From a virus, in IMG/VR virus record IMGVR_UViG_3300030098_002629, positions 1 to 21,076 of that record: a stretch of 21,076 bases of DNA; one strand, written 5' to 3'. The notes beneath the pieces were generated by a model. The model did not search any database and was not told the origin of the DNA. It worked only from the letters and a program-made list of their open reading frames with translations. Of this stretch, positions 1,743-21,076 are shown in pieces (the stretch's first letter is position 1; each line of letters opens with the position of its first letter). The position numbers and the translations under genes are program-made.

Positions 1743-1744
1743 TT

Positions 1745-3673: not shown

Positions 3674-3675
3674 TT

Positions 3676-3765
3676 ATGGAGTGGAATTTTAAAACGATAA
3701 CGGACTTTATTATGGGCATTATATTTATTTTTTGGTTTATAGAAAAAATAATAAATAAAAAGTAA
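3676..3765 (+). CDS. 29-aa single-span membrane peptide
   Basis: A short ORF between the helicase stop (three bases upstream) and the next start (five bases downstream), filling an otherwise empty gap. It encodes 29 residues: a short polar N-terminus with Trp, a hydrophobic core IMGIIFIFWFI (about 12-22) and a basic C-terminus EKIINKK. This fits a single membrane-spanning peptide with the C-terminus in the cytoplasm. The spacing matches the packed operon style, which is the main reason to accept it. Function unknown. Confidence 0.5.
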   Translation: MEWNFKTITDFIMGIIFIFWFIEKIINKK

Positions 3766-3770
3766 ACTCA

Positions 3771-4034: not shown

Positions 4035-4045
4035 AAGATATACAT

Positions 4046-4237
4046 ATGAAATTATATTGTAAAAATTGTGAAAAAACAACTGAAGTTAGTAAATTTACAA
4101 TGAAAGTCATTGATAATAAGGTTATTAAGCCTGAATCAATTTGCAGTTGTGGAGAACAAATGCAAGATATTTCAACTTACGATGGATTTGGTGGAATAAT
4201 AAAGAGACCAGGTGGTAAAGTAAGAGGTAAAAAATAG
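4046..4237 (+). CDS. Small zinc-ribbon protein
   Basis: A 63-residue protein with two cysteine pairs, CKNC (5-8) and CSC (33-35), about 24 residues apart. This arrangement fits a zinc ribbon whose knuckles clamp a beta hairpin. The C-terminus GFGGIIKRPGGKVRGKK is Gly/Lys-rich, as in nucleic-acid-binding tails, and similar small CxxC...CxC proteins with a 'GFGGI.KRPGG' end occur in other marine phages. It lies within the run of small genes after the helicase. Zinc binding is inferred from cysteine spacing; the target is unknown. Confidence 0.7.
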   Translation: MKLYCKNCEKTTEVSKFTMKVIDNKVIKPESICSCGEQMQDISTYDGFGGIIKRPGGKVRGKK

Positions 4238-4255
4238 TAATTAAATTTTATAACT

Positions 4256-4444
4256 ATGAAAGACTTTAAAACAATTCAGTGGGGTTGGGAACAACAAACT
4301 CCAATGGGCATGAGAAGTGAAGAGCATATAGCTTTTTTACTTAAAAGGTACAACGAAGGTAAACCTGAATCAGAACACGTAACAACAATGGCTCAGTTAA
4401 ACAGAGCTTTATTAAAAGAAGAGTCAGAAAATTTGAATAGTTAA
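4256..4444 (+). CDS. Hypothetical 62-aa protein
   Basis: Not recognised. It is soluble and helical in appearance, with a Trp-rich start (TIQWGWEQQTP) and an amphipathic C-terminal half (TTMAQLNRALLKEESENL). It has an A/T-rich upstream start and tight spacing to the zinc-ribbon gene (18 bases). The 29-base spacer that follows is a low-complexity TTAAATTAA-type repeat before the next start. Confidence 0.65.
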   Translation: MKDFKTIQWGWEQQTPMGMRSEEHIAFLLKRYNEGKPESEHVTTMAQLNRALLKEESENLNS

Positions 4445-4473
4445 ATTAAGTTAAACAATTAAATTAAATTAAA

Positions 4474-4743
4474 ATGATCGTAGTAGCGATAACAGTCGTC
4501 TGCGTTATATTTATTCTTATAGCGTGGGACATGGTAAAGTATTCTAAAAAAATTAAAGAAAGTGAAAGACATAATAACAGAGTTCTTGAAGATCTCAAGA
4601 GAGAAAAATCTAAGACTAAGCGTAGTACAAAGGTTTCTGAAGATCAAGTATCGAATAAACGTAAGTATAAGAGTGCTAAAAAGAAGGCTGTCGAATCTAA
4701 AGTAAATAAAAATGCAGGAAGAAATAAGAAAAAAATGCGATGA
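4474..4743 (+). CDS. Membrane-anchored, Lys-rich coiled-coil protein
   Basis: An 89-residue protein with one N-terminal transmembrane segment (IVVAITVVCVIFILIAW, about 2-18). A long, very basic helical tail follows, rich in Lys, Arg and Glu, with coiled-coil character at about 22-50. The positive charge after the membrane span places the tail in the cytoplasm. Architecture resembles an inner-membrane spanin, but a spanin's tail would face the periplasm and none of the neighbours is a lysis gene, so that reading is not favoured. It could tether nucleic acid to the membrane. The last 32 bases overlap the next gene in another frame. Confidence 0.62.
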   Translation: MIVVAITVVCVIFILIAWDMVKYSKKIKESERHNNRVLEDLKREKSKTKRSTKVSEDQVSNKRKYKSAKKKAVESKVNKNAGRNKKKMR

Positions 4744-5071
4744 GATCAGGGATTTATTAATAGAAAAGAATAAATCTTACGGCAACTCAGTTTTTGATAA
4801 AGGAGTTTTATTTAATGTTGATCCTATGTACGCCATCCAAGCTCGTATAAACGACAAGCTGAACCGTATAAAAAGTAAGGAGACTTACATGAGTGAGAAT
4901 GATCTCATGGATCTTACAGGTTACCTTATACTTCTTCAAGTTTACATGGATGAAGTAGATAGAAGAATGAGTGAAACTATTAAGTCTGCAGAAAAGTACG
5001 AAGAAAATGAGACACCATTTAGTTATGATTGGGTAAGTTACGAAGAAGATGAGACTGGAACCCCGATTTGA
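4712..5071 (+). CDS. Nmad1/DUF1599 nucleotide-modification-associated protein
   Basis: A 119-residue all-helical protein with the DUF1599 (Nmad1) pattern: LLIEKNKSYGNSVFDKG (about 15-31; the E-K-N-x-x-Y-G-N-S block is the hallmark), IQARINDKLNRIKS (42-55) and ENDLMDLTGYLILLQ (62-76). The acidic and basic positions resemble the metal and nucleotide site of MazG-type NTP pyrophosphohydrolases. Family members accompany modified-base pathways in phages, hence the name, and may process nucleotides. No base-modifying enzyme (thymidylate synthase homologue, glycosyltransferase, queuosine genes) is visible in this window, so a modification pathway is not shown here. The C-terminal 25 residues are acidic. 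It overlaps the upstream gene by 32 bases and the downstream gene by 23 bases. Confidence 0.8.
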   Translation: MQEEIRKKCDEIRDLLIEKNKSYGNSVFDKGVLFNVDPMYAIQARINDKLNRIKSKETYMSENDLMDLTGYLILLQVYMDEVDRRMSETIKSAEKYEENETPFSYDWVSYEEDETGTPI

Positions 5072-5492
5072 AAGTAAAGAAGATAGGCAACGAGAAGCTG
5101 AAACTCTTCGTATACTATTAGAGGGTAAAGATTTAACCTTTGAGCAGCTAGATAAGTACGCACCAGTAGATGCTGAGATTATAGACAACAAAACCATGAA
5201 GGTTATTTCTCTTTGTGAGGTTAAAACTATGAGTCTTAACATGAAAGACATACAAAGAGTTAGAACTTCAGTTAGAAAAATACAGCATTGTCAAAAAGAA
5301 GCACTTCAAAAGCAACTACCTTTATGTATAGCTTGGAGATTTCTAGATGGAATTGGTTATATTTGGATGCACGAAATAACAAAAGCCACAGTTGAGTGGG
5401 GTGGCATGAAAAACCCACGACCAGGATCTATATGGGATAGAGAATTATTATTCTATATAGATTTAGATTTACTAACTATAATTAAATTTTAG
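5049..5492 (+). CDS. Putative PD-(D/E)XK nuclease-like protein, 147 aa
   Basis: No family is recognised with certainty, but the core looks like a PD-(D/E)XK nuclease: a helix with Glu17, then PVDAEII (39-45) with Asp41, a beta strand, and CEVKT (56-60) giving Glu57-x-Lys59. A basic helix (MKDIQRVRTSVRKIQHCQKEA) and strands (LCIAWRFLDGIGYIWM) follow, as expected of the fold. It may cut DNA structures during replication or recombination, or take part in host DNA degradation. The start overlaps the Nmad1 gene by 23 bases in another frame, and the next gene begins two bases after its stop. Confidence 0.55.
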   Translation: MRLEPRFESKEDRQREAETLRILLEGKDLTFEQLDKYAPVDAEIIDNKTMKVISLCEVKTMSLNMKDIQRVRTSVRKIQHCQKEALQKQLPLCIAWRFLDGIGYIWMHEITKATVEWGGMKNPRPGSIWDRELLFYIDLDLLTIIKF

Positions 5493-5494
5493 AA

Positions 5495-5686
5495 ATGAAC
5501 AAGCAACAAAAAGATCAAGAGCAACAGTACAAGTATTTAAAGTTTGACTGTGAGATGAGAGCTAGAGTATTAGAGATAGCCTCAGGACTATCAACAAGTA
5601 AGAATGCTAAATCTCTTTTAGAGAATGCAGATAAACTTGCTAAATACGTTTTTGGCATACCAACTCCTCCAAAAGAAAAGAAATAA
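5495..5686 (+). CDS. Hypothetical 63-aa helical protein
   Basis: Not recognised. It is Gln- and Lys-rich at the N-terminus, followed by two predicted helices (CEMRARVLEIASGL and KSLLENADKLAKYVF), with a short Pro/Lys tail. The pattern resembles small phage helical-hairpin proteins of unknown function. It begins two bases after the nuclease-like gene and is the last gene before a 30-base gap with a possible promoter. Confidence 0.6.
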   Translation: MNKQQKDQEQQYKYLKFDCEMRARVLEIASGLSTSKNAKSLLENADKLAKYVFGIPTPPKEKK

Positions 5687-5690
5687 TTCG

Positions 5691-5698
5691 TATCTTGC
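5691..5698 (+). promoter_or_regulatory. Weak promoter-like box TATCTTGC
   Basis: TATCTTGC lies 26 bases before the ATG at 5717 and resembles the Bacteroidetes -7 box TAnnTTTG with one T missing. No -33 TTTG is present at the usual distance. A similar TATCTTAG precedes the gene at 5977. The shared sequence suggests, but does not prove, separate transcription of these genes. Confidence 0.25.
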
Positions 5699-5716
5699 AG
5701 GCTACAATAATATAGC

Positions 5717-5956
5717 ATGGCAAGTAAAAGCACTAAGCATTACAAAAAGAATAAGGAGTCGTATAATAAGAAAAAAAAGTACGACTCCGAATATTCTTCA
5801 TCTGAACAGAGAAAGAAGTATCGTGTTAAGCTAAACCTTTTTAACAGAAAGAATGGTAAGAAAGGTGATGGAAAAGATGCCTCGCACACTAAGTCTGGCA
5901 AACTTGTTTTAGAGAGTCAGTCCAAAAATAGGGCTAGGAATAGAGGTAAGAAGTAA
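5717..5956 (+). CDS. Very basic small protein with vestigial HNH-like core
   Basis: A 79-residue protein that is more than a third Lys and Arg. The segment KKGDGKDASHTKSGKLVLES resembles the 'KGDGKDvdHk.G' core of small HNH-type proteins common in marine phages, where Asp-x-Asp-His is the catalytic pair. Here the second Asp is replaced (D-A-S-H), and the end QSKNRARNRGKK keeps the basic 'kNR' signature. It may bind nucleic acid; nuclease activity is doubtful. Codons are strongly A-rich, like its neighbours. It lies between two nuclease genes and is preceded by a 30-base gap. Confidence 0.65.
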   Translation: MASKSTKHYKKNKESYNKKKKYDSEYSSSEQRKKYRVKLNLFNRKNGKKGDGKDASHTKSGKLVLESQSKNRARNRGKK

Positions 5957-5964
5957 TTATTTCA

Positions 5965-5972
5965 TATCTTAG
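5965..5972 (+). promoter_or_regulatory. Weak promoter-like box TATCTTAG
   Basis: TATCTTAG differs from TAnnTTTG at one position, lies five bases before the ATG at 5977, and mirrors TATCTTGC at 5691. The closeness to the start would give a nearly leaderless transcript. No -33 element is seen. Confidence 0.2.
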
Positions 5973-5976
5973 CTTA

Positions 5977-6441
5977 ATGCGATTCAAGAGAAGAAAAGGA
6001 AAGCAGATAACTAAAGCTAAGAAACACAACGCAGATGGAATCACATTTGCCTCAGGTCTAGAGCTTTACTGCTATAGAGCCCTTAAAAAAGCAAAGATCC
6101 CAAATCAATACGAAGGAAAAACTTTTGAGCTTGTAGAGAAATTCAAGTTTGAAGGACTCCTTATGGATAAGGGAAAAACAAAAGGTAAAACTACCTTTAA
6201 AAAAAAACCTGGTAATATAAGAAATATATCTTATACGCCAGACTTTATTAATTTAGAAAAAGGTTTTATCATAGAAACAAAAGGAATAAGAACCCCTGAG
6301 TTTAAGATGCGATTCAAGCTGTTTTTAAAGTATCTTCATGATACCGATCAAAAATTAGACGTATATGTCCCATCAAATCAAAAGGAGGTCGATATTGCAG
6401 TCGATACCATCTTAGGTCGGGGTTCTAAAAAACGAGAGTAA
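5977..6441 (+). CDS. PD-(D/E)XK endonuclease (DUF1064 / T7 endonuclease I-like)
   Basis: A 154-residue nuclease with a readable active site: FASGLELYCYRAL (24-36) with Glu29, YTPDF (86-90) with Asp89, and IIETKG (98-103) with Glu100 and Lys102. A following helix has Arg and Lys (TPEFKMRFKLF). This order matches DUF1064 and T7 endonuclease I-type proteins, which resolve branched DNA such as Holliday junctions during phage recombination and packaging. The N-terminus RFKRRKGKQ is strongly basic and could contact DNA. The last gene of the main plus-strand run, it is followed by a hairpin and an intrinsic terminator. A junction-resolving role is inferred from family and context. Confidence 0.78.
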   Translation: MRFKRRKGKQITKAKKHNADGITFASGLELYCYRALKKAKIPNQYEGKTFELVEKFKFEGLLMDKGKTKGKTTFKKKPGNIRNISYTPDFINLEKGFIIETKGIRTPEFKMRFKLFLKYLHDTDQKLDVYVPSNQKEVDIAVDTILGRGSKKRE

Positions 6442-6982: not shown

Positions 6983-9900
6983 CTATTTATACATTATTAA
7001 TAAAGAATCTTTATTTTTTCCATTATACACGTTATACATAACTTTATCTATAACATTTGATGGTACACCAGACTTTCTAAGTATCTCTCTACAGTTATTA
7101 TCTCCTTCACTTAATGGAACACCATACCTTCTAGCTGTAGCTACAACATCAACAAGACTGTTAAAATAAATAGCCATATCAGAATCAAAGCTTTCACTTC
7201 CAGGATCTATAGCCCTTGTAAGTTTAACACCTGAATCTCTAAGATCATAACCTTTACCTTCGGATCTACTTCTCATACTAGAATAAATATCCCTAGATCT
7301 AAAGAATAACGCTTTATTAACATCAATAGTAGTAATTCTAAGTCCTATCATAGCTAGTAGCTCGTGATTAGTTATCTTATCACTATTATCTTTTAAAGAG
7401 TCGTTGATAATCTTAGCTCTTCTTAAAACACCAGGACCTAAATTCTTACCTAAATGTAATGCTATGTCTGTAATTTTAGATGCGAAATTATCTGTAGGGT
7501 TATAAATTTTATTGCCTTTATTTTGTCTTATCTCCTCAACAACTTCAAGAGCCATGTCTTGACTTAAAAATGTTCTTCCAAGGGTAAAAGCTATTCTCAT
7601 TAACGAACTCTGTTGTTCTGGAGTATTCATATCTGTAAAAGCAATTCTTAACATATCTTTTACAAGTCCACCACCAGACAATCTTGAAACGTTCATATAT
7701 TGAACATAAGCGTTACCATTGTTCTCACCATTATAAGCCTCGTGATCAGGAGTAATATATCCTTTCTCTATAGGCGTTAACTTAGAGTCTTTATCCCAAG
7801 GAGCTGTTAGATGTCTTAATCCGTAAGTTTCTATATCGTCATCTTCATCATCTGATCCAGATCCAAACAACATTGACATAGCTGTAGATGTTATGTTTTC
7901 CATAAAAGTTAAGGCAGATAAAGAGAATGCTAATCGTTTAGCACCCATTAATTTTACCTTAGGGTTTTGATTACCCATCTCTTGAAACGCTAATTGTAAA
8001 GCGTTCTTAGTGCATCTTATGGCTTCAGATTGAAAAGCAACGAAGGTAGCAACAAAAGGGTTACGACCAAGAACTCTAACTAAGTTTGGGACCATATCAT
8101 AATTAGGGTAAAGGTTTCTAGTGTTTCTTGCTGCCATAGCCTTAGCCTCAGCCTCACTCATACCTGTTTCCATATATCTAGCCTTTTCAGTTATAAAACC
8201 AAATATCTTAAACACATCATCTTCAGCTTGATAAGCAGCAGTTAAACCTCTGTCTATACCTCTTAATCCTTTTAAAGGTATTGTTGCTACCTTTCTAACT
8301 CTACCCTGATTCATTCTATCTAAAAATGCTGTTACATCTTTACCTCCAGCTATATCTTGACCTATTTGTACTATCTCAGCTAAAGAAGCAGATGAGCTAA
8401 CAACACCAAGAGATATTAATTCTTGATAGAAGGCTTCTCTTTCTTTACCACTAAGGTTTGTTATCTCACCAATAGCTGTTCTAGCAGCGTCAAAAAATTT
8501 AATAGGATTCACGTGACCATTAGCTAAAGAGAAGTATGTGTTACCTATTAAGTTCACAGCGTGAGTCCCTGGGTTATGGACTGTGGCAAACTTTTTGGTT
8601 CCGTAAATAAAAGTCATATAAGCTTTGTAAGCCAACGAGTCAAAAAGTGAATTACTTTCATAAGCGTTAAGCATAGCAAACATTTCATTATCTACAAACT
8701 TACCTTCTAATGGACCCCATTTTTTTCCCTCTAATTTATTTGATATTCCAGGAATCTGAGATGTTTTATCATCATCTAAATTTGGATCGGCTACAAACTT
8801 ACCCATACCCATCTGTATAAGATCTTCATATAACTGATTAGATACTACGGTTCTAGATAGTTTAGATATTGTATTTATGTAATTTTCAAAAGGTTCGTTT
8901 ATCTCTCCAAGTAAATCTCTAATCTCTTTAGGAAGATCTTCATTTCTTTCTTTAAATATATCATTCACTCTGGTCATAGAACCACCAATACCTGTATTTC
9001 TTTTAAATGATGTTACACTAATCTTATCTTTAATAAGATTATCAACCATTTGTCTTGCACGAATCATAGCATCTTCTTTACTCATGTTTTTATCAGACAT
9101 AAGTTTGTCAGCTATAAATAATTCAGCACGTCTTATAACCTCTTGATCTGTCTGTCTCCAAGAGCTACTTTCATATTTCTTATAAGCTCTGGTTAAATAG
9201 AACCCAAGATTACCCTCTATGGTATACCTCATCGGTCCACTAACTAAACCATTCTCGTATAGGTATGTACTTAATGTATCTATGTGATCTCTAACCTGAA
9301 GTAAAGCTTGTCTAACCTTGGATTGTTCAGGTAACTCCATTATTTTATTTATATCACCTACAAGGTCGTTTAGACCTTCAGGTGTTAAATTAGATAGCAT
9401 TGCCTCTTGTTCTTGAGCTGTAGCTTGTTTATATTCAGGGGTATCTTTTATTCTTTTTATCTCTTGGTTTACAACTTTCTTAAGGTTCTTTTGATTTTTG
9501 TTAGCTATAAGCATTTGCTCATCAAGTTTACCTCTAGATAGAATAACCATCTCTTTTATCTCAGCGTTAGAGTGCATACCTTTAGGTATTCCAAACAACT
9601 GAGTAGCTCTGATAGGGTAAGGTCTGTCTTTATCTTTAATTCTTGTGGCCCATTCTCCAAGTTCGTAATCTGCATCTATAATAGGTTTTGTTAAGTCCCA
9701 CATTATAGCACCAAGTCCAGAGACATAAACATCACTCTGATCCTGATCGTTAACTTGGAATCTATCATCAACAATTTCAACTGGTTGCCATGCTGTAACT
9801 GTCTTACCACCAACATGGTCATATATGAATCCTTGAAAACCAAGTAACTCTGCAACCCTTGCAACTTCTTCAAACGTATTTATAGGTTGAGTTTTAGGGC

Positions 9901-12900
9901 TTATCTTTTCAAAGAAAGGACTATCAAACGTATCTCTTATTAAAGAGTTTATATTTTCAGATCCAAGTGGATAATTAAGTGAAAAACTAATACTTTCAAT
10001 ACCAGCCTTTTCAAAAGTTCCATCTTCGTTCTTATTATATCTAAAGTTCTCAGTAACAGAACCAAAATCTACTGAGTCTAATACACCCATATCTTTAAGT
10101 AAAGACTGTAGTTTTGATATTGCCATACTAGCACTATCTATAGTAGTAGCATTTAATTTTATTGTAGCTTGAGTTTTATCACCACTATTTCTTTTAATCT
10201 CTATAGCTCTTGATGCTAAATCGTTTAAACCTAAAGGGTCTTCAGTTAAAGGGTATAGTCTATCTATAGGAAATACTGTGGTGTTTTTGTAATGACCTCC
10301 AACAATGCCTTCTTTTATATTAGGATCTGTGTAGAAGAATACTCTAGATCTACCCCAGGTTTTGTATTCTTTCCTAGAATAAGAGTTCATTACTGCAGAT
10401 CTTGGATCAATAACGTCAAGTTCCATATCAGAGTAATGATACATCTTTATCATACCATCTTCAACTTGAATGTCTGGATACTTAGATTCTATTTCTGAAT
10501 ATGTTGACTTTAACAATGTTAATTGATCTTCAGTTATAGTGTTAACCTCTCCAGAAACTACTTGTGATCTAATTCCAGTAGATAAAGGAACTTTACTCTT
10601 CCAATTTATATCTAAAGAAAAGGTTACACCATCAGGTGTTGTTGAATTACCATCTTGAGCTAAAGCTTCCTTGCCAACGTAAACCTTTTCTGAGGCAGGG
10701 TTCATTCCTGAACCATCAGTAAAGATGTTACCTCTTCTTGTTAAGACACCTTCCTGGTCAAAGTTTTTACCAATTTGCATGGCTCTATTCTCTGTAATAC
10801 CAGATATAAAGTAGCTAGGACCCTGATCTTTATTAAGGTATACACCATCTGTTACAACTATATTCTCAGCACCAAACTCTTCAACAAGTTCTTTGTATAA
10901 TCTAGCATTGTTGGATACGTTAACATCAGCATCGTAACTACCATCAGCTTCAACAGTACCTGTTATTATAGACCAATTACCTTTAGATGATAAGCCAGAA
11001 ACATTTTCTAAAAATAAGTCCTGAGGGGTTGCGGTAATCCTATCCTCAGAAGGTGTAACGTTAAACCTACCATACTGGTTTCTACCACCTGTAAAACTAT
11101 CATCAGCCTGAGCTCTAATATTTACAATAGGTGTTGCCATCATTATAGCAGCGTTTCTTCTTGTTGTTGTTGTAGCTTCGCTGTATGGTTGACCTGTCTC
11201 AGGGTTTATTAAATACTTATCTGCAAGATTTAAATCACCCCAAAGTTCACTAGCATCAACAGCCTCATTAAATACCATTAAAGGCTCTCCTTTAACAACG
11301 TATGGATATGTTGGGTGATCTTTTATGTTAGAGTTTTCTCTTGAGTCTATAAATTCAGACTCAGTGTCAATCCTTATAGCAGCAACAACAGGATTACCAG
11401 TTAGGTCTTTTATATCTGATTGATTAACAATAGAATACATCTCTTCTCTTGTAGGTATGCCCCAGCTAGATAAATCTTTACCTTTAATCATTTTAGATAC
11501 TAAATCTTTTCTAACCTCAAAAGCACCATCAAGAGACATTATAAGTTCTCTAAACTCATTTATTGATTTAACCTTTTTCTTTGATATACCCTCTTTGTTT
11601 AATTTATCTTGAACTTTTTTTAGATTTAATTTTTTATTAATAAAATCTAGGACAATCTTTTTCTTTACTCTTTTCTTTTTAATGGAGTTGTCAATCTCAT
11701 CCATTACGTAATCAAACATTTCTACAGAACCATCTATAGACTGAGGTGACATCGCTACAAGTAATACTAGACCACCACTCTCCTTAGCTTTATTAAGTAC
11801 TTTAGATGCTGCACCTTTCGATGCAAATGCCCATACCCCTGTACCATCTTGATACGAGTAATACATGCCACCATTAAACTCTTTAACCACTCCAGATGGA
11901 GACTCTACAGTTCCAGATACAGACCTGTCTATACACATAAGCATAGCCTTCTGATCATTAAACTCTTTTATACTACCTCTTTTTACTTTTGACAAATCAA
12001 AGTTTGGGGTGTAGTCTCCAGGCTGAAATCTAATCTCTTGAGTTTCTACGCCCTCCATGTTTGTTACCTCAGTAACACCAAGGTCATCACCATGTTGTTG
12101 GCTATCAACCTGTTCTCGTATAGAGCTATCTACCTCTTTACTATTCTTAGGCTTTGATACGTTGAAGTCAACACCACCAACACTAACAGTCTTACCCTTA
12201 GCAAGAGCAGCACCAAGGTTACTCCTTAGTTGACCTATATCTTTTACGTCATCTAACTTAAGATCTGATAAGTTTTTCTCTTTTAAAAACTCTGCATTTA
12301 TATTAAAGTATTCTAATATCTCAGCAATAAAATCTTTTATTTGCTTTAGCTTAGAGTTGTCTTTCATAAACTGATTAGCAGCAGCGTCACCAATCATCTC
12401 AGCAAAAGCCTCTTCTATTTGTGCTGCTCTAGACTTACCAGGGTAGTTAGACTCAGCCCAACTCATATAGCTACCAGATTGTCTTCTACCGTTTTTATAC
12501 CATCTCTTTTTAAATGGAGATCCTGGTATATTAGAATCAGACTTTTCAACCATCTGCTCTATTCTAGAATATAAATCTGGGTTTTCTCTTTTTATAAAAT
12601 CCACAAGAGGGTGAGTTATCTCGTGAAATGGAGTATTAAGATTCATCTTCTGCAGATTAAGAACCATGGTCCCATCTTTAGCTCTATAAAAAGCTCTATT
12701 AGATGCTATTGAGTTTATTCTTTCAGGTGAATAACCCTCAGACTCAAGTTGCTTTTTCATAGCTGAATCTGTCTTAACAACTCTAATGTTAAGTCCTTTT
12801 ATATTAGAGAAGAATCTTAACACGTGACCAAGTATTTTCTTTTGATTGTCAGGTAGATTCTCTATGAAGGGATTTATATCTTCTATGTTATTAGCGTTAA

Positions 12901-15900
12901 AATCTTTACTGTATGAAGCCTTATTGGTTCCAAGTCTTACAGATACCTTTCTACCATTAACATTCATAACAACTATTCTAGCACCGTTTCTTGCATTAGG
13001 ACCAGTGTAAACATTACCATCTAAAGATTCTATTGTACCATCTCTATGAAGGATACCATCTTTACTAGAGGTTATAGTTTTTTGTCCAAATCCAACTGCT
13101 AGATCTAAAGCTGCAGAACTTTCCATTCCCTCAACCATAAAAGCTGTCTTGGATATTCCATTTTCTACAACCTGAACTTTCTTGTACTTTAATCCTTTCT
13201 TTTTAAGTACCTTCTCTAGTTTATCATTTCTTTGTTGATTAGATGCCTTACCTAATCCACCTACTGATGCAGATATTATGTTATAATCATTAGATAAATC
13301 ATCTTGAGAAACCTCGTCAAGATTCTTTTTATCTACCTTGTTGAAAGCTTTATTATTTTTCTTTTGAGTTTCAGCGTGTCTTCTTTCTTCTACAGCAGCT
13401 TTAGAATTTTGTTTATTAAAATTATTTAAAGCCCTTTTAGCTGCAGCTTTACTTTTAAACTTACCTAAGGTTATGTTATTCTCTGAAATACTTTTACCAT
13501 CTTTAGATATACCAACACCGTCTTGAGATAAAACTACAGACGGGTTAGAACCATCTTTTAATCCTTTTTCTAAAGCTCTAGCTTGAGATTCAGTTTGTAT
13601 CTCTGTTATTGTTTCTGTTCCCTGTATGTTTGCGTTATCAGTATTTTGATTAAGAACATTATCATTTAAAGATAACCCAGCCTTATTAATAATATTATTA
13701 AGTTTATCTGTAAGACCTTTCAAGTCTTGAGAACCTTTAGCACCAGTCTCCTTAATTATCTCACTCATTCTATTAAGAAGTCCCTTAACTTTGGCTATCT
13801 TATCTGAAGGTGCTTTATCAGTAGATTCTTGCAAATCATTTTCTATCTGATTTAATAAAGAGTTAGCCTCTGACCCTGCCTCGTTAACATCATTATTGGC
13901 TTGGACAACATCTTCAGAATTAGTGTTTGCTATATCATCTATAGCGTCAGCTATGTCAGAGTTATACCTATTAACTTTAATATCACCATTAATTTCGCCT
14001 GCTATATTGTTAGGGTCTTTACTCCACTCTTTATACTCAGCACCAGTAAGCTCTTTAGTTTCACCTAGAGATCCATCCTCATTAACAACTTGATATGTAG
14101 CTACAATCTTATTTGTTAGATCTGTACCTTTAATTGAGTTTAACGCAGAGACACCTACAGCACCTGCACCACCAACAGTTCTTATACCAGCAGCCATACC
14201 AAATCCAGCTATACCAGCATTAGCAACCCTATTCACAACATCATCAAAGCTTTTAGCTAATATACCAGCGTCATTAGTCTTTTCTGTTAACGTAACATGA
14301 TCTACTAACATAGTAGAAATCTCTGTCAGCATCTCTGACCCTGGTTCTTTTATAAATATATCTTTAAAAGCATTTTCAGAAACCTCTTTAGCAACTTGTT
14401 TTGCTGCTTTTTTTCCAGCATTTCTTAATGTTTTTTGAACAGCTCCAATCATTTGATAGGTAGGTATTTCATATAAAACTTCAAATCCACCACTAGCAAT
14501 AGAATTTAAAGCTAAATTAAAATTATTAATATCTATCTTGCCTGACTCTCTAAGCTCCTTAAGCTCTAAAGATTTTTGACCAGCAGCCGAAACACCAAGA
14601 CCACCAAGAATAATCTTAGGATTAATGCCTAATCTTCTAGCCATAGCCATAACAACTATCTGCATTGATGATCCAGCTATAGACTTACCAAACAATGCAG
14701 GAACATCATCCCAAGCACCAGCTCTTATGGCTTCCATTACACCTGGGTACTTATACATTCTCTGCATATCCCTTAGTTGTTCAGCGTAATCTTGAACGTG
14801 ATTAGCTAAAAAACCTCCAGTCTTAATATACTCATCACTAAAAGGAGCTTCAAGAACTTCACCAACTTCAAGTAATCCAGCACCCATACTAGCTCCACCA
14901 GCTAAAAACTCTTCTACTATATCATAAACTTCGCTACCAGCGTTAGACTGAACATCTAAGGTAGCCTTCAAAAATTTACCATACTCTGTTTCAGCGACAG
15001 CAGGGTCTATAGAAACTTTTATAGAGCCATTTTGAAGTCCAGTTATAAAATCTCTATCGTAAACTTGTTGCTCTAAATTAGCAGGAGAAGTCTCCTGGCC
15101 ATTAACCATAAATGCTTTTGATTTAACGTATGCTGTGTTTATTCCAGATTGCTCTACTAATTGATTTAACCTCTCTCCCCTGAAGCCTTGATCAATAAAA
15201 GAGTTCATAAGGTTAGTATTGACATACTCCTCAGCTTTAATAGCATCCTCTTCTTGCTCTTCTAACGCTTTGTAAACATCACTCTCGTCTAGATTAGAAA
15301 GAGGCTTAGCTTTACGTTCAAGATCCTCAATCTCTGTATCTATAACACTATCTGATTTCTTATAGTTCTTTATAGCATACTCCTCAGCTTCTTCTTTACT
15401 ACCAAGTCTAAACTCACTCTCGTCATCGTAATCGTAACCAGTAAAAGCTTGATCTAAATTTTGTAAAAAGTTACCAGAAAATAAACCTTTATCTGTAGGT
15501 ATATAGTACCGATCAGAACCTTCCTTTTGTTTTATACCAACACGAGTCATCTTAGCATTGGTAAGATCTTTTCTTGCTTGTTCTTTCTCTAATTCTATTT
15601 GTGACTTTCTATCTAAAAGGGCTTGCCTCTCACTGTAGTTTAATCCAAAAGCATCATAAACTCTAGATCTCTCATCTTCTAGATTAGACTTCATAGCCTC
15701 TTGATCTGAGCTAGTAGTAAATACTGATAAGTCTAGTTGACTGCCTTTATTTAAGCGATCTTGTATTGATTGATCAAGAGATTCAGTTCCTCCAGAAACC
15801 GATTCTCCAACCTCTGAAGGAGAAGTAGAGACCTGTGAAGGGTCTTTTTTTTTTAAGTTAAAGTTCTCTAAAGATCCAACATCGTATCCCTCTTTATTAA

Positions 15901-16027
15901 AGAAGTCATACAACTCTTTTCTCTTTAACTCGTCCTCAAGTGAAGAGGTAAAGTTATTAAAGTCACCTAAATCGTATCCCTCTTTATTAAAAAAGTCATA
16001 TAGCTCTTGAGCTTTAATTTCATCCAT
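6983..16027 (-). CDS. Giant virion-associated polyvalent protein (metallopeptidase-like, ART-like, LPD38-like)
   Basis: A 3014-residue uninterrupted ORF, the largest in the window. Residues 8-56 contain two 30-aa repeats (ELYDFFNKEGYDLG / ELYDFFNKEGYDVG). Residues about 440-480 and 596-630 are Gly/Ala-rich and hydrophobic, possible membrane or channel segments. HEITH at 1135-1139, with EEAFAE about 70 residues later (Glu1206/Glu1210 as third ligand), makes a gluzincin-type zinc metallopeptidase motif. A segment near 1400 (VWAFASKGAASK) resembles a domain recurrent in large phage proteins. MYHYSD at 1862-1867, followed by IDP and RVFFYTD, resembles the ADP-ribosyltransferase domain of polyvalent proteins. 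The C-terminal region (about 2450-2700, with VHNPGTHAVNLIGN and NPFVATFVAFQSEA) resembles LPD38. Polyvalent proteins are packaged and delivered with phage DNA. Position after two virion-type genes supports that. Domain names rest on motif reading only. Confidence 0.75.
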   Translation of the reverse strand: MDEIKAQELYDFFNKEGYDLGDFNNFTSSLEDELKRKELYDFFNKEGYDVGSLENFNLKKKDPSQVSTSPSEVGESVSGGTESLDQSIQDRLNKGSQLDLSVFTTSSDQEAMKSNLEDERSRVYDAFGLNYSERQALLDRKSQIELEKEQARKDLTNAKMTRVGIKQKEGSDRYYIPTDKGLFSGNFLQNLDQAFTGYDYDDESEFRLGSKEEAEEYAIKNYKKSDSVIDTEIEDLERKAKPLSNLDESDVYKALEEQEEDAIKAEEYVNTNLMNSFIDQGFRGERLNQLVEQSGINTAYVKSKAFMVNGQETSPANLEQQVYDRDFITGLQNGSIKVSIDPAVAETEYGKFLKATLDVQSNAGSEVYDIVEEFLAGGASMGAGLLEVGEVLEAPFSDEYIKTGGFLANHVQDYAEQLRDMQRMYKYPGVMEAIRAGAWDDVPALFGKSIAGSSMQIVVMAMARRLGINPKIILGGLGVSAAGQKSLELKELRESGKIDINNFNLALNSIASGGFEVLYEIPTYQMIGAVQKTLRNAGKKAAKQVAKEVSENAFKDIFIKEPGSEMLTEISTMLVDHVTLTEKTNDAGILAKSFDDVVNRVANAGIAGFGMAAGIRTVGGAGAVGVSALNSIKGTDLTNKIVATYQVVNEDGSLGETKELTGAEYKEWSKDPNNIAGEINGDIKVNRYNSDIADAIDDIANTNSEDVVQANNDVNEAGSEANSLLNQIENDLQESTDKAPSDKIAKVKGLLNRMSEIIKETGAKGSQDLKGLTDKLNNIINKAGLSLNDNVLNQNTDNANIQGTETITEIQTESQARALEKGLKDGSNPSVVLSQDGVGISKDGKSISENNITLGKFKSKAAAKRALNNFNKQNSKAAVEERRHAETQKKNNKAFNKVDKKNLDEVSQDDLSNDYNIISASVGGLGKASNQQRNDKLEKVLKKKGLKYKKVQVVENGISKTAFMVEGMESSAALDLAVGFGQKTITSSKDGILHRDGTIESLDGNVYTGPNARNGARIVVMNVNGRKVSVRLGTNKASYSKDFNANNIEDINPFIENLPDNQKKILGHVLRFFSNIKGLNIRVVKTDSAMKKQLESEGYSPERINSIASNRAFYRAKDGTMVLNLQKMNLNTPFHEITHPLVDFIKRENPDLYSRIEQMVEKSDSNIPGSPFKKRWYKNGRRQSGSYMSWAESNYPGKSRAAQIEEAFAEMIGDAAANQFMKDNSKLKQIKDFIAEILEYFNINAEFLKEKNLSDLKLDDVKDIGQLRSNLGAALAKGKTVSVGGVDFNVSKPKNSKEVDSSIREQVDSQQHGDDLGVTEVTNMEGVETQEIRFQPGDYTPNFDLSKVKRGSIKEFNDQKAMLMCIDRSVSGTVESPSGVVKEFNGGMYYSYQDGTGVWAFASKGAASKVLNKAKESGGLVLLVAMSPQSIDGSVEMFDYVMDEIDNSIKKKRVKKKIVLDFINKKLNLKKVQDKLNKEGISKKKVKSINEFRELIMSLDGAFEVRKDLVSKMIKGKDLSSWGIPTREEMYSIVNQSDIKDLTGNPVVAAIRIDTESEFIDSRENSNIKDHPTYPYVVKGEPLMVFNEAVDASELWGDLNLADKYLINPETGQPYSEATTTTRRNAAIMMATPIVNIRAQADDSFTGGRNQYGRFNVTPSEDRITATPQDLFLENVSGLSSKGNWSIITGTVEADGSYDADVNVSNNARLYKELVEEFGAENIVVTDGVYLNKDQGPSYFISGITENRAMQIGKNFDQEGVLTRRGNIFTDGSGMNPASEKVYVGKEALAQDGNSTTPDGVTFSLDINWKSKVPLSTGIRSQVVSGEVNTITEDQLTLLKSTYSEIESKYPDIQVEDGMIKMYHYSDMELDVIDPRSAVMNSYSRKEYKTWGRSRVFFYTDPNIKEGIVGGHYKNTTVFPIDRLYPLTEDPLGLNDLASRAIEIKRNSGDKTQATIKLNATTIDSASMAISKLQSLLKDMGVLDSVDFGSVTENFRYNKNEDGTFEKAGIESISFSLNYPLGSENINSLIRDTFDSPFFEKISPKTQPINTFEEVARVAELLGFQGFIYDHVGGKTVTAWQPVEIVDDRFQVNDQDQSDVYVSGLGAIMWDLTKPIIDADYELGEWATRIKDKDRPYPIRATQLFGIPKGMHSNAEIKEMVILSRGKLDEQMLIANKNQKNLKKVVNQEIKRIKDTPEYKQATAQEQEAMLSNLTPEGLNDLVGDINKIMELPEQSKVRQALLQVRDHIDTLSTYLYENGLVSGPMRYTIEGNLGFYLTRAYKKYESSSWRQTDQEVIRRAELFIADKLMSDKNMSKEDAMIRARQMVDNLIKDKISVTSFKRNTGIGGSMTRVNDIFKERNEDLPKEIRDLLGEINEPFENYINTISKLSRTVVSNQLYEDLIQMGMGKFVADPNLDDDKTSQIPGISNKLEGKKWGPLEGKFVDNEMFAMLNAYESNSLFDSLAYKAYMTFIYGTKKFATVHNPGTHAVNLIGNTYFSLANGHVNPIKFFDAARTAIGEITNLSGKEREAFYQELISLGVVSSSASLAEIVQIGQDIAGGKDVTAFLDRMNQGRVRKVATIPLKGLRGIDRGLTAAYQAEDDVFKIFGFITEKARYMETGMSEAEAKAMAARNTRNLYPNYDMVPNLVRVLGRNPFVATFVAFQSEAIRCTKNALQLAFQEMGNQNPKVKLMGAKRLAFSLSALTFMENITSTAMSMLFGSGSDDEDDDIETYGLRHLTAPWDKDSKLTPIEKGYITPDHEAYNGENNGNAYVQYMNVSRLSGGGLVKDMLRIAFTDMNTPEQQSSLMRIAFTLGRTFLSQDMALEVVEEIRQNKGNKIYNPTDNFASKITDIALHLGKNLGPGVLRRAKIINDSLKDNSDKITNHELLAMIGLRITTIDVNKALFFRSRDIYSSMRSRSEGKGYDLRDSGVKLTRAIDPGSESFDSDMAIYFNSLVDVVATARRYGVPLSEGDNNCREILRKSGVPSNVIDKVMYNVYNGKNKDSLLIMYK
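15881..16008 (-). repeat. Tandem 90-nt repeat encoding the N-terminal 30-aa repeats
   Basis: Two 38-base blocks, 15881-15918 and 15971-16008, are identical at 35 positions and lie exactly 90 bases apart. They encode ELYDFFNKEGYD twice. The DNA identity is higher than the intervening sequence, implying recent duplication or constraint. Similar 'LYDxxxxEGYDLGxFxxF' repeats open large proteins in other Bacteroidetes phages (recalled, not searched) and may be a virion-targeting or docking module. Confidence 0.8.
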
Positions 16028-16033
16028 AACTAT

Positions 16034-17623
16034 TTATTCTTCTGGTGATATTGGTGTTTTTTTCTTTTCACCACTATTTTCTTCAGTTTTTAATTGTGGT
16101 TGCTGATAATTTATAAGCTGTTGCACACCAGGTTGTTTTAAGGCTGTATCGTGTTCTGCTGATGTCAACTGATCCCATGGCACAACAACTTTAGGACCAT
16201 CTTCTCCTCCTAATTGAACAACCCCTATAGGTTCACCACTACCATCTAAAGCAACCTCTATAAGGTTTACTTCTATACCTGTAAAGTTAGAGTTATCTGC
16301 AATAATAGCATCGTATTCTGCTCTTTCGCTACTACCCTCTTCACCTTTTATCTGACCCATTCTCTCAAGCTGTCTCTCTTTAAATGCTAACACAGATTCA
16401 TCGCTAATAGATCTGTGAAGATCAGCAGCACTTACCTTAACTTTAATATCAGCACCAGTTATACTTTTTGATGTGCTCTCTCCAGTGTATTGAGAAACAC
16501 CAGTTCTATGCTTATCCTGAGCTTCATTATTCTGCATGTAGTTATATGTATCTACATTATATTTATTTTGAGCCGCCTCTCTCTCTTTTCTTTTTCTTTC
16601 TGTGTCAGTTGTTGCTTTTTTACCTCTTTTTTGATCTCTATCTTTATACCCTCTATCAGCAATTTTTTGACCTAAATACTCAGCATACTTATCAGAAAGT
16701 TCTTTATTAAATTTATCACTTTCTGGGTCTAACTGTTCAATTAAATCTACACTAGGAGACACTACGCCTCCAATAACTCCTGTATCTGGATCAACGTAAG
16801 CTTCTTCAAAAAAAGCATCCATAGCAGGAATCCTAACACCATCCACCTCAATTTGTTCGTTTTTATAAACAGCAGCAGCATTAGAATCATTATGTTTATT
16901 ATTAGCGTTAACTTTTAGTTTACTAATAATTTCATTTGTAGTTACTTTTTTTCTGTTTGGATCAATTTCTGTTATATTATATCCATTTTCATCTACACCT
17001 ATAACTACTCTAAAGTTTTTATCATCATTCTCAAAATAAAGATCTCTATTATTATAAAAAGGAATAAAGTCACTTTTTTTAATCATAGATGTAGGATCTA
17101 TAGAATAAGCTCTCAAAGCTTCCTCAAGAGTCATATTCCCACTATTAACTTCCTCCTTTATCTTATTATAATTATACTGGTAAAGGTAAGTTTCACCATC
17201 TTCAGCTAACTTCAAAGTATTTCCCCTACCCTCAAGTACTGCATTATTTAAACTAGTTAGACCATCACTTAAATTATCGTATAAATTTTTACTAGATGAT
17301 AATCCCCTTTCAAGTGCATCTTTTTGATTTCGTAAATTAATATCACCATCATAAATAGATATACTATTTTCACTTACAAATCGTTGATAATCACCTACTT
17401 GAGTTTGAAACTGCTCTTGAAGAAAAGGATCCATTCCAGACACTTCATAAGATTCAGCTTCTACCCCTTTTGACCTAGCATCTTTTCTTCTTCTTATAGA
17501 CTCCTGTCTTTGGAGTTCTAACTCTTCTTTTTGAATAGCTAATTGTTGTCTAGTAGCCTCCTCCTGAATAAGATTCCTATTGTTTTTAAGAACTTGACCC
17601 GTAAAAAATAAAGCGTCACTCAT
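16034..17623 (-). CDS. Putative internal virion protein, 529 aa, coiled-coil
   Basis: Not recognised at family level. Residues about 15-60 form a strong Gln/Glu/Arg-rich coiled coil (EEATRQQLAIQKEELELQRQ). Further helical charged stretches appear near 350-400, and the C-terminus is a Lys/Glu/Pro tail (SGEKKKTPISPEE). No signal peptide, membrane segment or catalytic motif is seen. It starts six bases after the 424-aa gene and ends six bases before the giant gene, so the three are one transcript. Position beside a tail stabilisation protein and before a giant ejected-type protein suggests an internal core or ejection protein like the T7 gp14-gp16 set, but this is by position only. Confidence 0.6.
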   Translation of the reverse strand: MSDALFFTGQVLKNNRNLIQEEATRQQLAIQKEELELQRQESIRRRKDARSKGVEAESYEVSGMDPFLQEQFQTQVGDYQRFVSENSISIYDGDINLRNQKDALERGLSSSKNLYDNLSDGLTSLNNAVLEGRGNTLKLAEDGETYLYQYNYNKIKEEVNSGNMTLEEALRAYSIDPTSMIKKSDFIPFYNNRDLYFENDDKNFRVVIGVDENGYNITEIDPNRKKVTTNEIISKLKVNANNKHNDSNAAAVYKNEQIEVDGVRIPAMDAFFEEAYVDPDTGVIGGVVSPSVDLIEQLDPESDKFNKELSDKYAEYLGQKIADRGYKDRDQKRGKKATTDTERKRKEREAAQNKYNVDTYNYMQNNEAQDKHRTGVSQYTGESTSKSITGADIKVKVSAADLHRSISDESVLAFKERQLERMGQIKGEEGSSERAEYDAIIADNSNFTGIEVNLIEVALDGSGEPIGVVQLGGEDGPKVVVPWDQLTSAEHDTALKQPGVQQLINYQQPQLKTEENSGEKKKTPISPEE

Positions 17624-17629
17624 CTTTTA

Positions 17630-18904
17630 TTATTTTGGTTTTATGTAAGCACCTAGTTTAGCTTTTAACTTTTCTAAGTATCCACCATTCATCATTTTGG
17701 TTTGAGGTGCGTCAGATCTTCCTTTTTCTTTTACTAAGAACTCTCTATAGTTTTTTATAAACTCAATTTCAGCTTTACTGGTTGAGTCAATGTCAAAAGA
17801 AAGCTTATCACCAATATACTTAATAAGTCCTGCAGGATTTGTTGGATCCTCATCAAAAGGAAGCTCTCCAACGTTTCTAACCTGGTCAGAATTTTCCTTC
17901 ATCACTTTTACAATCTCTTGAGCCCTGCCCTCTTTTAGAGGTGGTACAGTAGGGTCTTGCATTTTAGCACCTTCCTGAGCTTCACTATCATCATCATCAC
18001 CTATAACGTTGCTGTCGTATTTAGCAACTAAATCTTTCATTAATTTAAAAGCAGCGTTTTTATCACCATCATTTAGAGCCATCCTAATTTCTTGGACATC
18101 ATCAGGAGGTAGTATGAGTTCTCCGCCTGTAGCCTCACCAATCTTTTCACCATCTTGAACCATATCTATTGGGTTGCTGTCGTGGTCAAATTCACCTGGT
18201 GTAACGCCACCATCCTTATCTATTTTACCACCTTTTTCCCCAGAAGGTAACTCACCACTTCCTGGTGTAGTTCTTTGATTTCTTTTTTGTTTATTAATAT
18301 CTCTACCTGTAGGATTACTAAAGTTATCATTAGCATTATTACTATCATCACCAAAATTCATAGCACCGATACCAGAAGCTATATCTTCAATACCACCAAA
18401 TATATTTTGCTGTGCAGCAGCTTTTTGATCTACTATACCTTTAAGTTCTGCTTCAGCAACACCTAGTCTTTGAGTCTCAGCCATTTGCTGTTCCCTAGCT
18501 AGGTTTTCCATAGCTCTAGTTTTAGCATCCTGCTGCATACCTAAAAGATCTGTTCTTTGTTTTGCAGCCTGAGTTTCTAAAGATTGAACTCCTGCTAAGA
18601 CGTTTCTAGGGTCCTTAGCTAAAGCACCCATAGCAGATGCTCTATCAGCAGCCTGCTGTTGTTGAAGTTGATTTATATAACTTTGATCTATAGGTTGATC
18701 AGCCATCTTTTGTGATGCAGAGCTAACTCCTCTCTCTAACCTGCTCTTATCAAAATCTCTCTCTGCCTTTCTAGCTCTTCTAGCTTGCACAGCTCCAAAT
18801 ATAGATTTACCTAATCCAAGTGCAGCTGTTGCAGCTCCAACAACTGCTTTAGGTGTTTTATTCTTCTTATTATATTTTATCTTGGGTTTTACTCTACGTG
18901 CCAT
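17630..18904 (-). CDS. Putative virion structural protein, 424 aa
   Basis: Starts with a very basic segment (MARRVKPKIKYNKKNK), then an Ala/Gly hydrophobic helix (about 19-40), a Gln/Ala/Met-rich coiled region (60-165), an Asn/Gly/Asp linker, and a conserved-looking block at 237-273: GEFDHDSNPIDMVQDGEKIG followed by GGELILPPDD. Blocks of the type 'NPI..V.dG..iGE.TGGE' recur in phage tail and internal virion proteins. Acidic runs (DDDD) and a Lys-rich end (YLEKLKAKLGAYIKPK) complete it. It is the first gene after a TAnnTTTG promoter box and heads the unit leading to the 529-aa and 3014-aa genes. Role inferred as structural or ejection protein. Confidence 0.6.
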   Translation of the reverse strand: MARRVKPKIKYNKKNKTPKAVVGAATAALGLGKSIFGAVQARRARKAERDFDKSRLERGVSSASQKMADQPIDQSYINQLQQQQAADRASAMGALAKDPRNVLAGVQSLETQAAKQRTDLLGMQQDAKTRAMENLAREQQMAETQRLGVAEAELKGIVDQKAAAQQNIFGGIEDIASGIGAMNFGDDSNNANDNFSNPTGRDINKQKRNQRTTPGSGELPSGEKGGKIDKDGGVTPGEFDHDSNPIDMVQDGEKIGEATGGELILPPDDVQEIRMALNDGDKNAAFKLMKDLVAKYDSNVIGDDDDSEAQEGAKMQDPTVPPLKEGRAQEIVKVMKENSDQVRNVGELPFDEDPTNPAGLIKYIGDKLSFDIDSTSKAEIEFIKNYREFLVKEKGRSDAPQTKMMNGGYLEKLKAKLGAYIKPK

Positions 18905-18941: not shown

Positions 18942-21076
18942 TTATCTATTACTGAGCTCACTCTTGTCTACGTCTGCGTTTACAGCGTAAAGATTAAACT
19001 TCTTTTTAGACTGATTAGAGTTAGTAGCTAATATAGCTCTCATATAACTACCCTTCATTCTCTCACCTTCTATAGAGCCTGTTTTAGTCATAAATAAAAA
19101 GCCTCCATCGTAGCTAGAGTCATAACTATAATTACCAGCGATAAGTATCTTAGTTGCAGATTCTCCATTAAAAGTACCACTAATTATTGAGTATGGATAC
19201 CCTAAAAATTCAGTTGTTGAATCAGTCTTTTTTATGTATATGCTAAGATTAGCACTTACAACTAAACTTTCTGTAGCTGAACTAGAACCATTATGCGTTA
19301 TAACATCACCTACAGATGCTTGATTAGATCCGTAAGAAGAGTCAGAAGCAGAGATCAAATCTTCTTCACCTGGAGCTATATATGTTATAACATAACTTGC
19401 TCCATTAATCATATCACTTGGTGATATTGGTTTGTTCAGATTTGCAGTAGTTGTTAGACTTGTGACTATAGATAAGTTTTCGTTATCATCATCTAAGCCT
19501 GATACTATACCAACACCTTGTATATCTGATCCGTCACCAAAATTAAAGTTTTCCCCTCTAGATTCTATATCTGATGTGCAGAAAGGAATATCAGCATATT
19601 GTATACCCTCTTTAGTTTTATAGTCAATAACTAACATAGTATTATTATCTAAACTTATATCCATCTCTTCTTCAACCTCTATTAGAGTATTTGATATTAC
19701 TTTAGATACTATGTGCTGCTCTTCAGATGCGTTTCCAATAACTTTAATTAAATCACCTGGAGATACGTCTTCATAAAACTTAGTGTCTATGCCTTGTATC
19801 TCAAAATTAGAAACAGTTAAATTGTTACTACACTTGCCTTTAACCTTTTTAAAAGCAATGTTTGTAGTTATAACTTCATCATAATTACCATAGTGTTGAC
19901 CCATGTTAGAGAATAGACCCGTAATAAATTTTGTATCACTCTCTAATGATATAGCGTTATAAGTCTTAATAGATGAAGGCTCTGCGTTAAATACAAAGTC
20001 AATATAAGATAGGTTATTGTTCCCGTAAAACTTATTGAAAGCCTGATTACTTCTAGAATATTTATCTGAGTCGTTATGTCTGTATAATCTACCTTGCTTG
20101 AAGGTGACAAATTGTCTGTTTACCTTAGAGTAATACTCAGGAATATAAGAGTAGAACGATGTCCATCTATTTGATTCTTCACTAAACGCTACAGTAACAG
20201 GATTAAATATAACAACCTTATCATCAAAAGCATTTTCAGGTTTAGTTGTTATCTCATTCCAAGTAGCGATGCTATCACTCCAAACATAAGTTTCAGCTGC
20301 ATATCCAGAGTCTGGATTGCTAATTATTGAAGGGAATGTAACTATATACTCATTATATTTAGGGTCATAACCACCAACAATAGAAGGAGTAAACTCTAAA
20401 TCGTCATTGTACTCTGGGTTATACTTTAAGAACATTTCACCTAGATCTCTAAAGTAATCCTTCATACCATTGTCAGATATAACTGTAATACCATCATTAG
20501 ATAGTCTAAGAACAGATCCTCTTTGTATATCTGTAAAATAGAATACGTTACCTTGTTTTATTACAGACTCAGGGTTTAAACTACAACCATACTGACCTGA
20601 ATAAACTATAGCATAATTATCTATAATCTTATTAGATAAAGAAACTAGACCTTCTCCTGAAGCTGTGTTAAGTATATCTTTACCTACTAAAACTCTACCA
20701 ACCTTGCTTTCATGGAATATAATCAGGTCGTTGTTTTGATTACTTAAATATTGAATAGATCCAAAGTCTTTATTATAATCAAAGTAAGGTGTATTTGCTA
20801 AATTAAAGTTACTTAAACCATTTATAGCACCTGTGCTTACATAAGGCTCAGAGAAGAATATAGAAGCTTTAAGTCTTCTTTCTTCTGAGTTATTATTAAC
20901 TACGTTTATACGACCTTTATCGTAATGATTGGTTTTATGAAAATCATTTAAGAAATAGTCTTCACAAGCAAAGGCTTCTATAGAATCTCCGTTTGTCTCA
21001 GTATACATAGTTCTAGACTTCAAATAAACATCTCCACCGTCTAAAGTCACTTCAGCAGGAATTAAAGAAACCTCTG
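18942..21076 (-). CDS. Tail stabilisation (P22 gp10 / T7 gp12-like) protein, 5' partial
   Basis: The frame is open through the window edge (VSLIPAEVTLDGG upstream), so the GTG at 21050 is internal; 710 residues are visible. The pattern of phage tail-nozzle or DNA-stabilisation proteins is seen: IQYLSNQNNDLIIFHESKVG, then YGCSLNPESVIKQGNVFYFT, GSVLRLSNDGITVISDNGM, YFRDL, and a beta-rich propeller-like body with GGYDPKYNEYIVTFP. The C-terminal part has an acidic beta region and the ending FNLYAVNADVDKSELSN, seen in related tail proteins. Such proteins plug the portal and form the tail nozzle in podoviruses. No catalytic motif is visible. Similar proteins occur in marine and crAss-like podovirus-type phages. 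The exact family would need a search. Confidence 0.6.
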   Translation of the reverse strand, partial: EVSLIPAEVTLDGGDVYLKSRTMYTETNGDSIEAFACEDYFLNDFHKTNHYDKGRINVVNNNSEERRLKASIFFSEPYVSTGAINGLSNFNLANTPYFDYNKDFGSIQYLSNQNNDLIIFHESKVGRVLVGKDILNTASGEGLVSLSNKIIDNYAIVYSGQYGCSLNPESVIKQGNVFYFTDIQRGSVLRLSNDGITVISDNGMKDYFRDLGEMFLKYNPEYNDDLEFTPSIVGGYDPKYNEYIVTFPSIISNPDSGYAAETYVWSDSIATWNEITTKPENAFDDKVVIFNPVTVAFSEESNRWTSFYSYIPEYYSKVNRQFVTFKQGRLYRHNDSDKYSRSNQAFNKFYGNNNLSYIDFVFNAEPSSIKTYNAISLESDTKFITGLFSNMGQHYGNYDEVITTNIAFKKVKGKCSNNLTVSNFEIQGIDTKFYEDVSPGDLIKVIGNASEEQHIVSKVISNTLIEVEEEMDISLDNNTMLVIDYKTKEGIQYADIPFCTSDIESRGENFNFGDGSDIQGVGIVSGLDDDNENLSIVTSLTTTANLNKPISPSDMINGASYVITYIAPGEEDLISASDSSYGSNQASVGDVITHNGSSSATESLVVSANLSIYIKKTDSTTEFLGYPYSIISGTFNGESATKILIAGNYSYDSSYDGGFLFMTKTGSIEGERMKGSYMRAILATNSNQSKKKFNLYAVNADVDKSELSNR

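Follow-up and report, generated by a model that had tools for sequence, protein, structure and literature searches.

Polyvalent proteins are single polypeptides that combine 2-15 domains of disparate activity, and in the account by Iyer et al. (2017; PMC5512222), those of the phage type are encoded among late virion genes, packaged and transferred together with the DNA. The same account proposes processing of polyvalent proteins by zincins, likening it to eukaryotic viral polyproteins, and records the polymerase of phage N4, which also bears a zincin, as packaged uncut (PMC5512222). SAM lyases, for their part, act against restriction and BREX, and type III CRISPR includes a PII-like SAM-AMP lyase (PMC12255297); the residues critical for the SAM lyase Svi3-3 are Tyr58, Glu69-x-Ser71 and Gln104-Glu105-Ser106 (PMC7877911).

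The window, i.e. the whole stretch of DNA analysed here, covers bases 1-21,076 of a marine phage record that is 37,599 bases long. In agreement with the original prediction, which had been made from the letters of the sequence, positions 6983-16027 of the minus strand hold a single open reading frame of 3014 aa (start at 16027, stop at 6983) without internal stop. An identical copy of the gene lies in a second contig (L002; 58.6 kb), and further relatives with 56% down to ~36% identity were found in other contigs (within L002-L015 and at more loci). Since the whole gene recurs in other contigs, an assembly artefact is an unlikely explanation of the ORF. It is the last gene of the virion module, preceded on the same strand by genes for two probable internal virion proteins, a ~3.4-kaa virion gene, and genes for two connector-like proteins, capsid, a scaffold-like protein and portal. 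This context, a C-terminus common to annotated virion structural proteins and the invariant zincin residues described below support the claim of a virion-type giant with a zinc-protease domain and effector-like cassettes. The ~3.4-kaa virion gene is broken into ORFs of 702 and 2730 aa by a 10-N scaffold gap just beyond the window (G000 21077-21086) and is a single open frame in L002. On the plus strand, positions 112-6441 encode by eye an ERF-like recombination protein, a PDDEXK-like exonuclease, an HTH protein, a DnaB-like helicase and a small endonuclease-like protein. The features of the locus are:

6983..16027, minus strand: gene of the 3014-aa polyvalent giant (ORF; homologues L002-L015 and further loci)
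15860..16009, minus strand: tandem N-terminal repeat, aa 7-56, followed by invariant KKKD, aa 59-62 (sequence)
12938..13315, minus strand: DUF3293 copy 1, aa 905-1030 (PF11697, E 1.1e-8; SAM-lyase/PII-like, active-site residues degenerate)
12233..12850, minus strand: zincin-type metallopeptidase domain, aa 1060-1265 (A3 alignment; AlphaFold model)
12611..12625, minus strand: HEITH, aa 1135-1139, predicted zinc ligands and catalytic Glu (sequence; A3)
12395..12415, minus strand: EEAFAEM, aa 1205-1211, candidate third zinc ligand (A3; A4)
12110..12121, minus strand: motif 1, IREQ, aa 1303-1306 (in a linker of pLDDT<50)
12023..12034, minus strand: motif 2, IRFQ, aa 1332-1335 (disordered tail of the zincin model)
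11120..12022, minus strand: 305-aa cassette, aa 1336-1636 (cluster of 10; most constant cassette of the group)
11108..11119, minus strand: motif 3, IRAQ, aa 1637-1640 (sequence)
10574..11107, minus strand: second DUF3293-like cassette, aa 1641-1818 (PF11697, E 0.0021, below the curated cut-off)
10562..10573, minus strand: motif 4, IRSQ, aa 1819-1822 (sequence; L003 junction nearby)
9767..10561, minus strand: ART-like cassette (YHYS ... VFFYTD ... GFQGF), aa 1823-2087 (at motif level only; phrog_31873, E 0.004)
9755..9766, minus strand: motif 5, DRFQ, aa 2088-2091 (just before the C-terminal module)
6986..9754, minus strand: conserved C-terminal virion module, aa 2092-3014 (phrog_22602 virion structural protein, E 6.6e-37; A2 alignment)
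16034..17623, minus strand: 529-aa upstream gene of the same operon, probable internal virion protein (position; syntenic ORFs in relatives)
17630..18904, minus strand: 424-aa upstream gene, probable internal virion protein (position; synteny)
18942..21050, minus strand: 702-aa C-terminal piece of the ~3.4-kaa virion gene (phrog_14478, E 4.8e-39)

With a zincin, two DUF3293 domains, the 305-aa and ART-like cassettes and the C-terminal module in one chain, and with a gene preceded on its strand by those for portal, capsid and connector, the 3014-aa protein is by domain content and gene position a polyvalent protein in the sense of Iyer et al. 2017. Aligned with distant relatives, it is well conserved at aa 900-1300 and 2100-3000, and the alignment is poorly conserved or gappy at aa 1300-2090. 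The duplicated N-terminal module that had been predicted is indeed present as a tandem repeat (copies ELYDFFNKEGYDLGDFNNF and ELYDFFNKEGYDVGSLENF), and the KKKD that follows corresponds to invariant columns in the alignment of relatives. Repeat and KKKD together (window 15842-16027, aa 1-62) are possibly a packaging or targeting signal; in gp101 of phage phi38:1 the tandem repeat is another one (ELDEFGIP, twice), and KKKE follows it. As to the predicted Gly/Ala-rich hydrophobic stretches, the composition was confirmed at ~aa 584-660 (35% G+A versus 14% on average), but the giant shows no membrane-spanning segment that convinces.

The zinc-metallopeptidase-like motif of the original prediction proved to be the core of a conserved domain: the HExxH residues and the downstream glutamates are invariant in all 14 sequences of alignment A3 (reading HEITH, HEIIH or HEIVH), and the EEAFAEM glutamates stay nearly invariant in A4, which adds more distant members. 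HEITH and EEAFAEM both lie on helices of the AlphaFold model, giving the zincin arrangement of HExxH plus a downstream Glu on the next helix, and the third ligand that the prediction had asked for has a candidate in EEAFAEM. These findings support a zinc-protease domain with its active-site signature intact. The zincin part was modelled at moderate pLDDT, with Foldseek matches to anthrax lethal factor and Certhrax at E 0.1-0.7 and low TM; the modelled region (aa 880-1345) as a whole matches the model of a structural protein of a Flavobacterium phage (elemoC). Searching PDB sequences with the zincin profile returned chance-level matches only. Among 84,980 bacterial and archaeal genomes no relative of the zincin was found, and the phages are therefore perhaps strictly lytic. 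A fragment in L006 (aa 1-494) reads FYEIIHP at the zincin, with the His lost, and its adjoining motifs look decayed (IREK, IKMQPF); it could be a defective copy.

Two DUF3293/SAM-lyase-like domains, like the cassette structure and the punctuation motif described below, had been absent from the original prediction. Pfam PF11697 matches aa 926-985 and, more weakly, a second region at ~1700-1760; the whole-protein score of 35.9 bits exceeds the cut-off of 25, and scored singly copy 1 reaches 25.1 bits and copy 2, at 19.1 bits, stays under it. In Foldseek, the model of aa 880-1345 matched the T3-type SAM lyases 8bb1/7ock in the PDB (prob 1.00, TMt ~0.60, E ~0.01) and phage SAM hydrolase models in BFVD (TMt up to 0.68, E <1e-3). 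Profile comparison by hhalign gave 74.7% between DUF3293 and seven SAM lyases versus 0.1% for an unrelated zincin profile used as control; a PDB sequence search with the DUF3293 profile yielded chance-level matches only. Copy 1 thereby shows the GlnB/PII-like SAM-lyase fold on the predicted model. The catalytic signature is replaced in the window protein, which reads VENG / KTA / QKT, whereas most relatives keep SAM-lyase-type residues (VYNG / EES / Q[ED]S). Because the residues are kept there and replaced here, an enzymatic role of DUF3293 is likely in the relatives with an intact signature and doubtful in the window protein. DUF3293 as a whole, for which we found no mention in the literature searched, may be a SAM-lyase/PII-like family. 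PF11697 was present in 1 of 14 control genomes.

At the other end of the chain, an LPD38-like C-terminus had been proposed. Pfam LPD38 matched neither aa 2090-3014 nor any of six distant proteins sharing parts of the module, and the match to a virion structural protein family (phrog_22602) takes its place. By tblastn with the C-terminal module, the nearest named phages are Cellulophaga phi19:3, phi18:3 and phi38:1 and Pseudoalteromonas phage Y3.

The zone between the zincin and the C-terminal module is exchanged between relatives, with the 305-aa domain, DUF3293-like, ART, methyltransferase, ParB-like and LPD23 domains occurring in it. L007 has a methyltransferase (PF13489, 8e-7), and L015 a ParB-like domain; L037 carries LPD23 together with a second HExxH, a phrog_3170 domain is found in L009, and L004 contains inserts that the window protein lacks. 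ART-PolyVal cassettes (PF18760, Pfam) occupy the middle zone of L071, L072, L074 and L021. The 305-aa cassette has no Pfam match and is the only one folded confidently in the model of the cassette zone (~aa 1352-1595); its Foldseek matches, small ferredoxin-like folds of low TM, were taken as uninformative. The predicted ADP-ribosyltransferase did not stand as a Pfam ART: PF18760 finds no match in the ART-like cassette of the window protein, hhalign against the true ART-PolyVal cassettes gave a probability of 3.4%, with only 3 sequences a side, and an additional viral scan revealed no more homologues. To judge from its residue motifs, a host-modifying transferase in the window protein is plausible. 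In L003, a different upstream flank is joined to the same ART-like cassette within ~12 residues of motif 4.

The cassettes are delimited by a short border motif with the core [IL]-R-[FM]-Q-[AV]-P, which varies in the window as IREQ, IRFQ, IRAQ, IRSQ and DRFQ. Across 21 giants, [LIMST][RK][FM]Q was seen 56 times between zincin and C-terminal module versus 1.8 times expected from shuffles; outside this zone there was 1 match before it (2.6 expected) and 0 after it (1.7 expected). Ten chosen representatives carried 28 motifs (0.85 expected; maximum of 6 in 1000 shuffles). The window protein alone has a relaxed motif (only IRFQ is strict), which is not significant without the relatives. In the near clade the motif occurs only downstream of the zincin, and motifs 1 and 2 fall in the disordered tail that follows it (aa 1266-1345, pLDDT<50; AlphaFold, aa 880-1345). 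Since related proteins are non-independent, motif matches were reduced to distinct junctions, leaving 34, in which 21 left and 22 right flanks are joined combinatorially. A given left end can be followed by different right ends and vice versa, so that recombination between related cassettes takes place at the motif. Of the local-alignment ends, 15% lie within 5 aa of a motif versus 3.5% at random; the motif is confined to cassette borders. The C-terminal module begins 7-8 aa past the last motif in most giants, divergent clades included, and the border in more distant clades reads TRFQL or [RK]FS[LI] (SRFSL/TRFSL by inspection). The codons of the motif vary synonymously (AGA/AGG/CGA, TTC/TTT, CAA/CAG), which suggests that it is the peptide that is under selection. 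VRSQ in L021/L024 was rejected as a cassette border as it sits inside the ART cassette, and relaxed motif forms were for this reason kept out of the enrichment statistics.

Proteins that share the C-terminal module and lack a HExxH zincin (phi19:3 gp129, phi38:1 gp101, HTVC027P gp85 and 023Pt) lack the motif, an absence confounded by these controls being distant and apparently cassette-free too. In the phage that encodes the window protein, capsid, scaffold and connector proteins are also free of it, and relaxed single matches occur in the portal (RMQ) and the tail protein (RAQ). No RFQ-like motif was seen in other zincin-bearing polyvalent proteins (Nostoc, Pag-Yong1, ctQRb9 and Y3 ORF30), and giants with a QEIQSDW domain and cyanophage polyvalent proteins are mostly without it. 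An unrelated zincin-bearing giant of 5067 aa (L131) has a border-like repeat of its own, FSRR in five copies plus variants, which came from a scan of dozens of proteins and whose trimer is not significant after correction (0.1). The tray of exchangeable cassettes, the border motif and the likeness of DUF3293 to phage SAM lyases are new.

To our knowledge, no cleavage site of a polyvalent-protein zincin has been reported, though cutting has been proposed since 2017. The co-occurrence of the protease with a repeated border motif suggests that the main target of the protease is its own chain rather than host proteins. On the most likely reading, the giant would be a self-cutting viral polyprotein, whose embedded zincin cleaves at the border motifs and frees the cassettes. 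Its N-terminal chassis (the tandem repeat, a long helical region, the SAM-lyase-like DUF3293 and the zincin) would be followed by a row of exchangeable effector cassettes and the conserved C-terminal virion module. The chain would be packaged in the virion and injected, the zincin would cut it at the border motifs, either in the capsid or after ejection, and the freed cassettes would act as separate effectors on the host early in infection. We hold this with evenly balanced confidence because there are counter-examples: in L074 the motif persists in an RFSL version next to a zincin reading HDIVH, in L028 the zincin is intact and the first motif decayed (IRKK), and the motif is missing from several other giants with a zincin. 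Somewhat short of even is our confidence in a broader proposal, namely a true prokaryotic viral polyprotein that would deliver interchangeable effectors flanked by zincin sites from the virion, with cassette, protease and site co-evolving (RFQ, RFS and, in the unrelated L131, FSRR) and with DUF3293 as a virion-borne counter-defence domain of SAM-lyase type in most members.

The main rival to self-cutting sees in the motif a joining site for the shuffling of cassettes, in the form of short homologous DNA or a tolerant linker at which phages would recombine productively, with no proteolysis involved and the zincin acting elsewhere. The two roles are compatible and can both hold, and recombination junctions do fall exactly at the motif, where the R-F-Q codons are partly alike from copy to copy (AGA TTC CAA being frequent). 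As the sole explanation we nevertheless consider shuffling unlikely: codons differ at several positions, the residue pattern persists through L/I and F/M swaps, homologous recombination would have only a short seed of 12 bases, and the motif is retained at the constant border of the C-terminal module in divergent clades.

The site could also be cut by another protease. T4 gp21 cuts packaged internal proteins during head maturation, and in other phages prohead proteases mature the effectors that are packaged; by analogy, a phage prohead or host protease might cut the motif during head maturation, leaving the zincin as an effector against host proteins. The absence of the motif from capsid, scaffold-like and connector proteins of the phage studied here, its restriction in the near clade to positions downstream of the zincin, and the lack of a prohead-protease family match among the structural genes scanned in this incomplete record make this quite improbable. 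Alternatively, the chain might never be cut and would be an ejected internal virion giant analogous to T7 gp16 or N4 vRNAP, with the motif as a structural linker or docking peptide. The gene is the last in a block of internal-virion-protein-like genes, and the zincin-bearing N4 vRNAP, packaged unprocessed according to Iyer et al. (PMC5512222), would by analogy count against the polyprotein reading. However, serving as a structural linker does not call for a single tetrapeptide that is found in the cassette zone alone and is missing where relatives have no zincin, and we regard an uncut chain as improbable. Under the self-cutting polyprotein reading, the border motif is a candidate processing signal that gives exact predicted cut points and makes processing by the zincin testable. 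It also offers a way to parse phage giants into single effectors, and the SAM-lyase-like reading provides a functional hypothesis for DUF3293.

Among described proteins, phi19:3 gp129 and phi38:1 gp101 (Pachyviridae, Pervagoviridae) share the C-terminal module (~26% identity) and, annotated as virion structural proteins, the position as last gene of the virion block; phi38:1 additionally has the analogous N-terminal repeat and KKKE. Both differ in being without HExxH zincin and border motif. Gp074 of Tenacibaculum phage Gundel_1 (Pachyviridae, podovirus), a 2482-aa 'structural protein' adjoining a virion structural gene, has a homologous zincin (HEFGH, E 5e-4), but neither border motif nor cassette was detected downstream of it. 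In ORF31 of Pseudoalteromonas phage vB_Pun_Y3 (PMC11654794), the C-terminal module (27% identity) likewise stands behind an ART-PolyVal-like domain; unlike the giant, it has 1027 aa and is without zincin and motif. The giant resembles the phage SAM lyases (T3 gene 0.3, Svi3-3) in the fold predicted for DUF3293 copy 1, and most of its relatives also have the Y / E-x-S / Q-[ED]-S residues; it differs in that DUF3293 is embedded in a virion giant and the catalytic residues are replaced in the window. With polyvalent proteins as described by Iyer et al. (PMC5512222), it has in common the many unrelated domains per chain, the zincin metallopeptidase, the ART and ParB-like cassettes and the late virion context. 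What sets it apart, and was not found in the sections of that account consulted, is a border motif limited to the zone from zincin to C-terminus, swaps of cassettes at this motif and a SAM-lyase-like domain.
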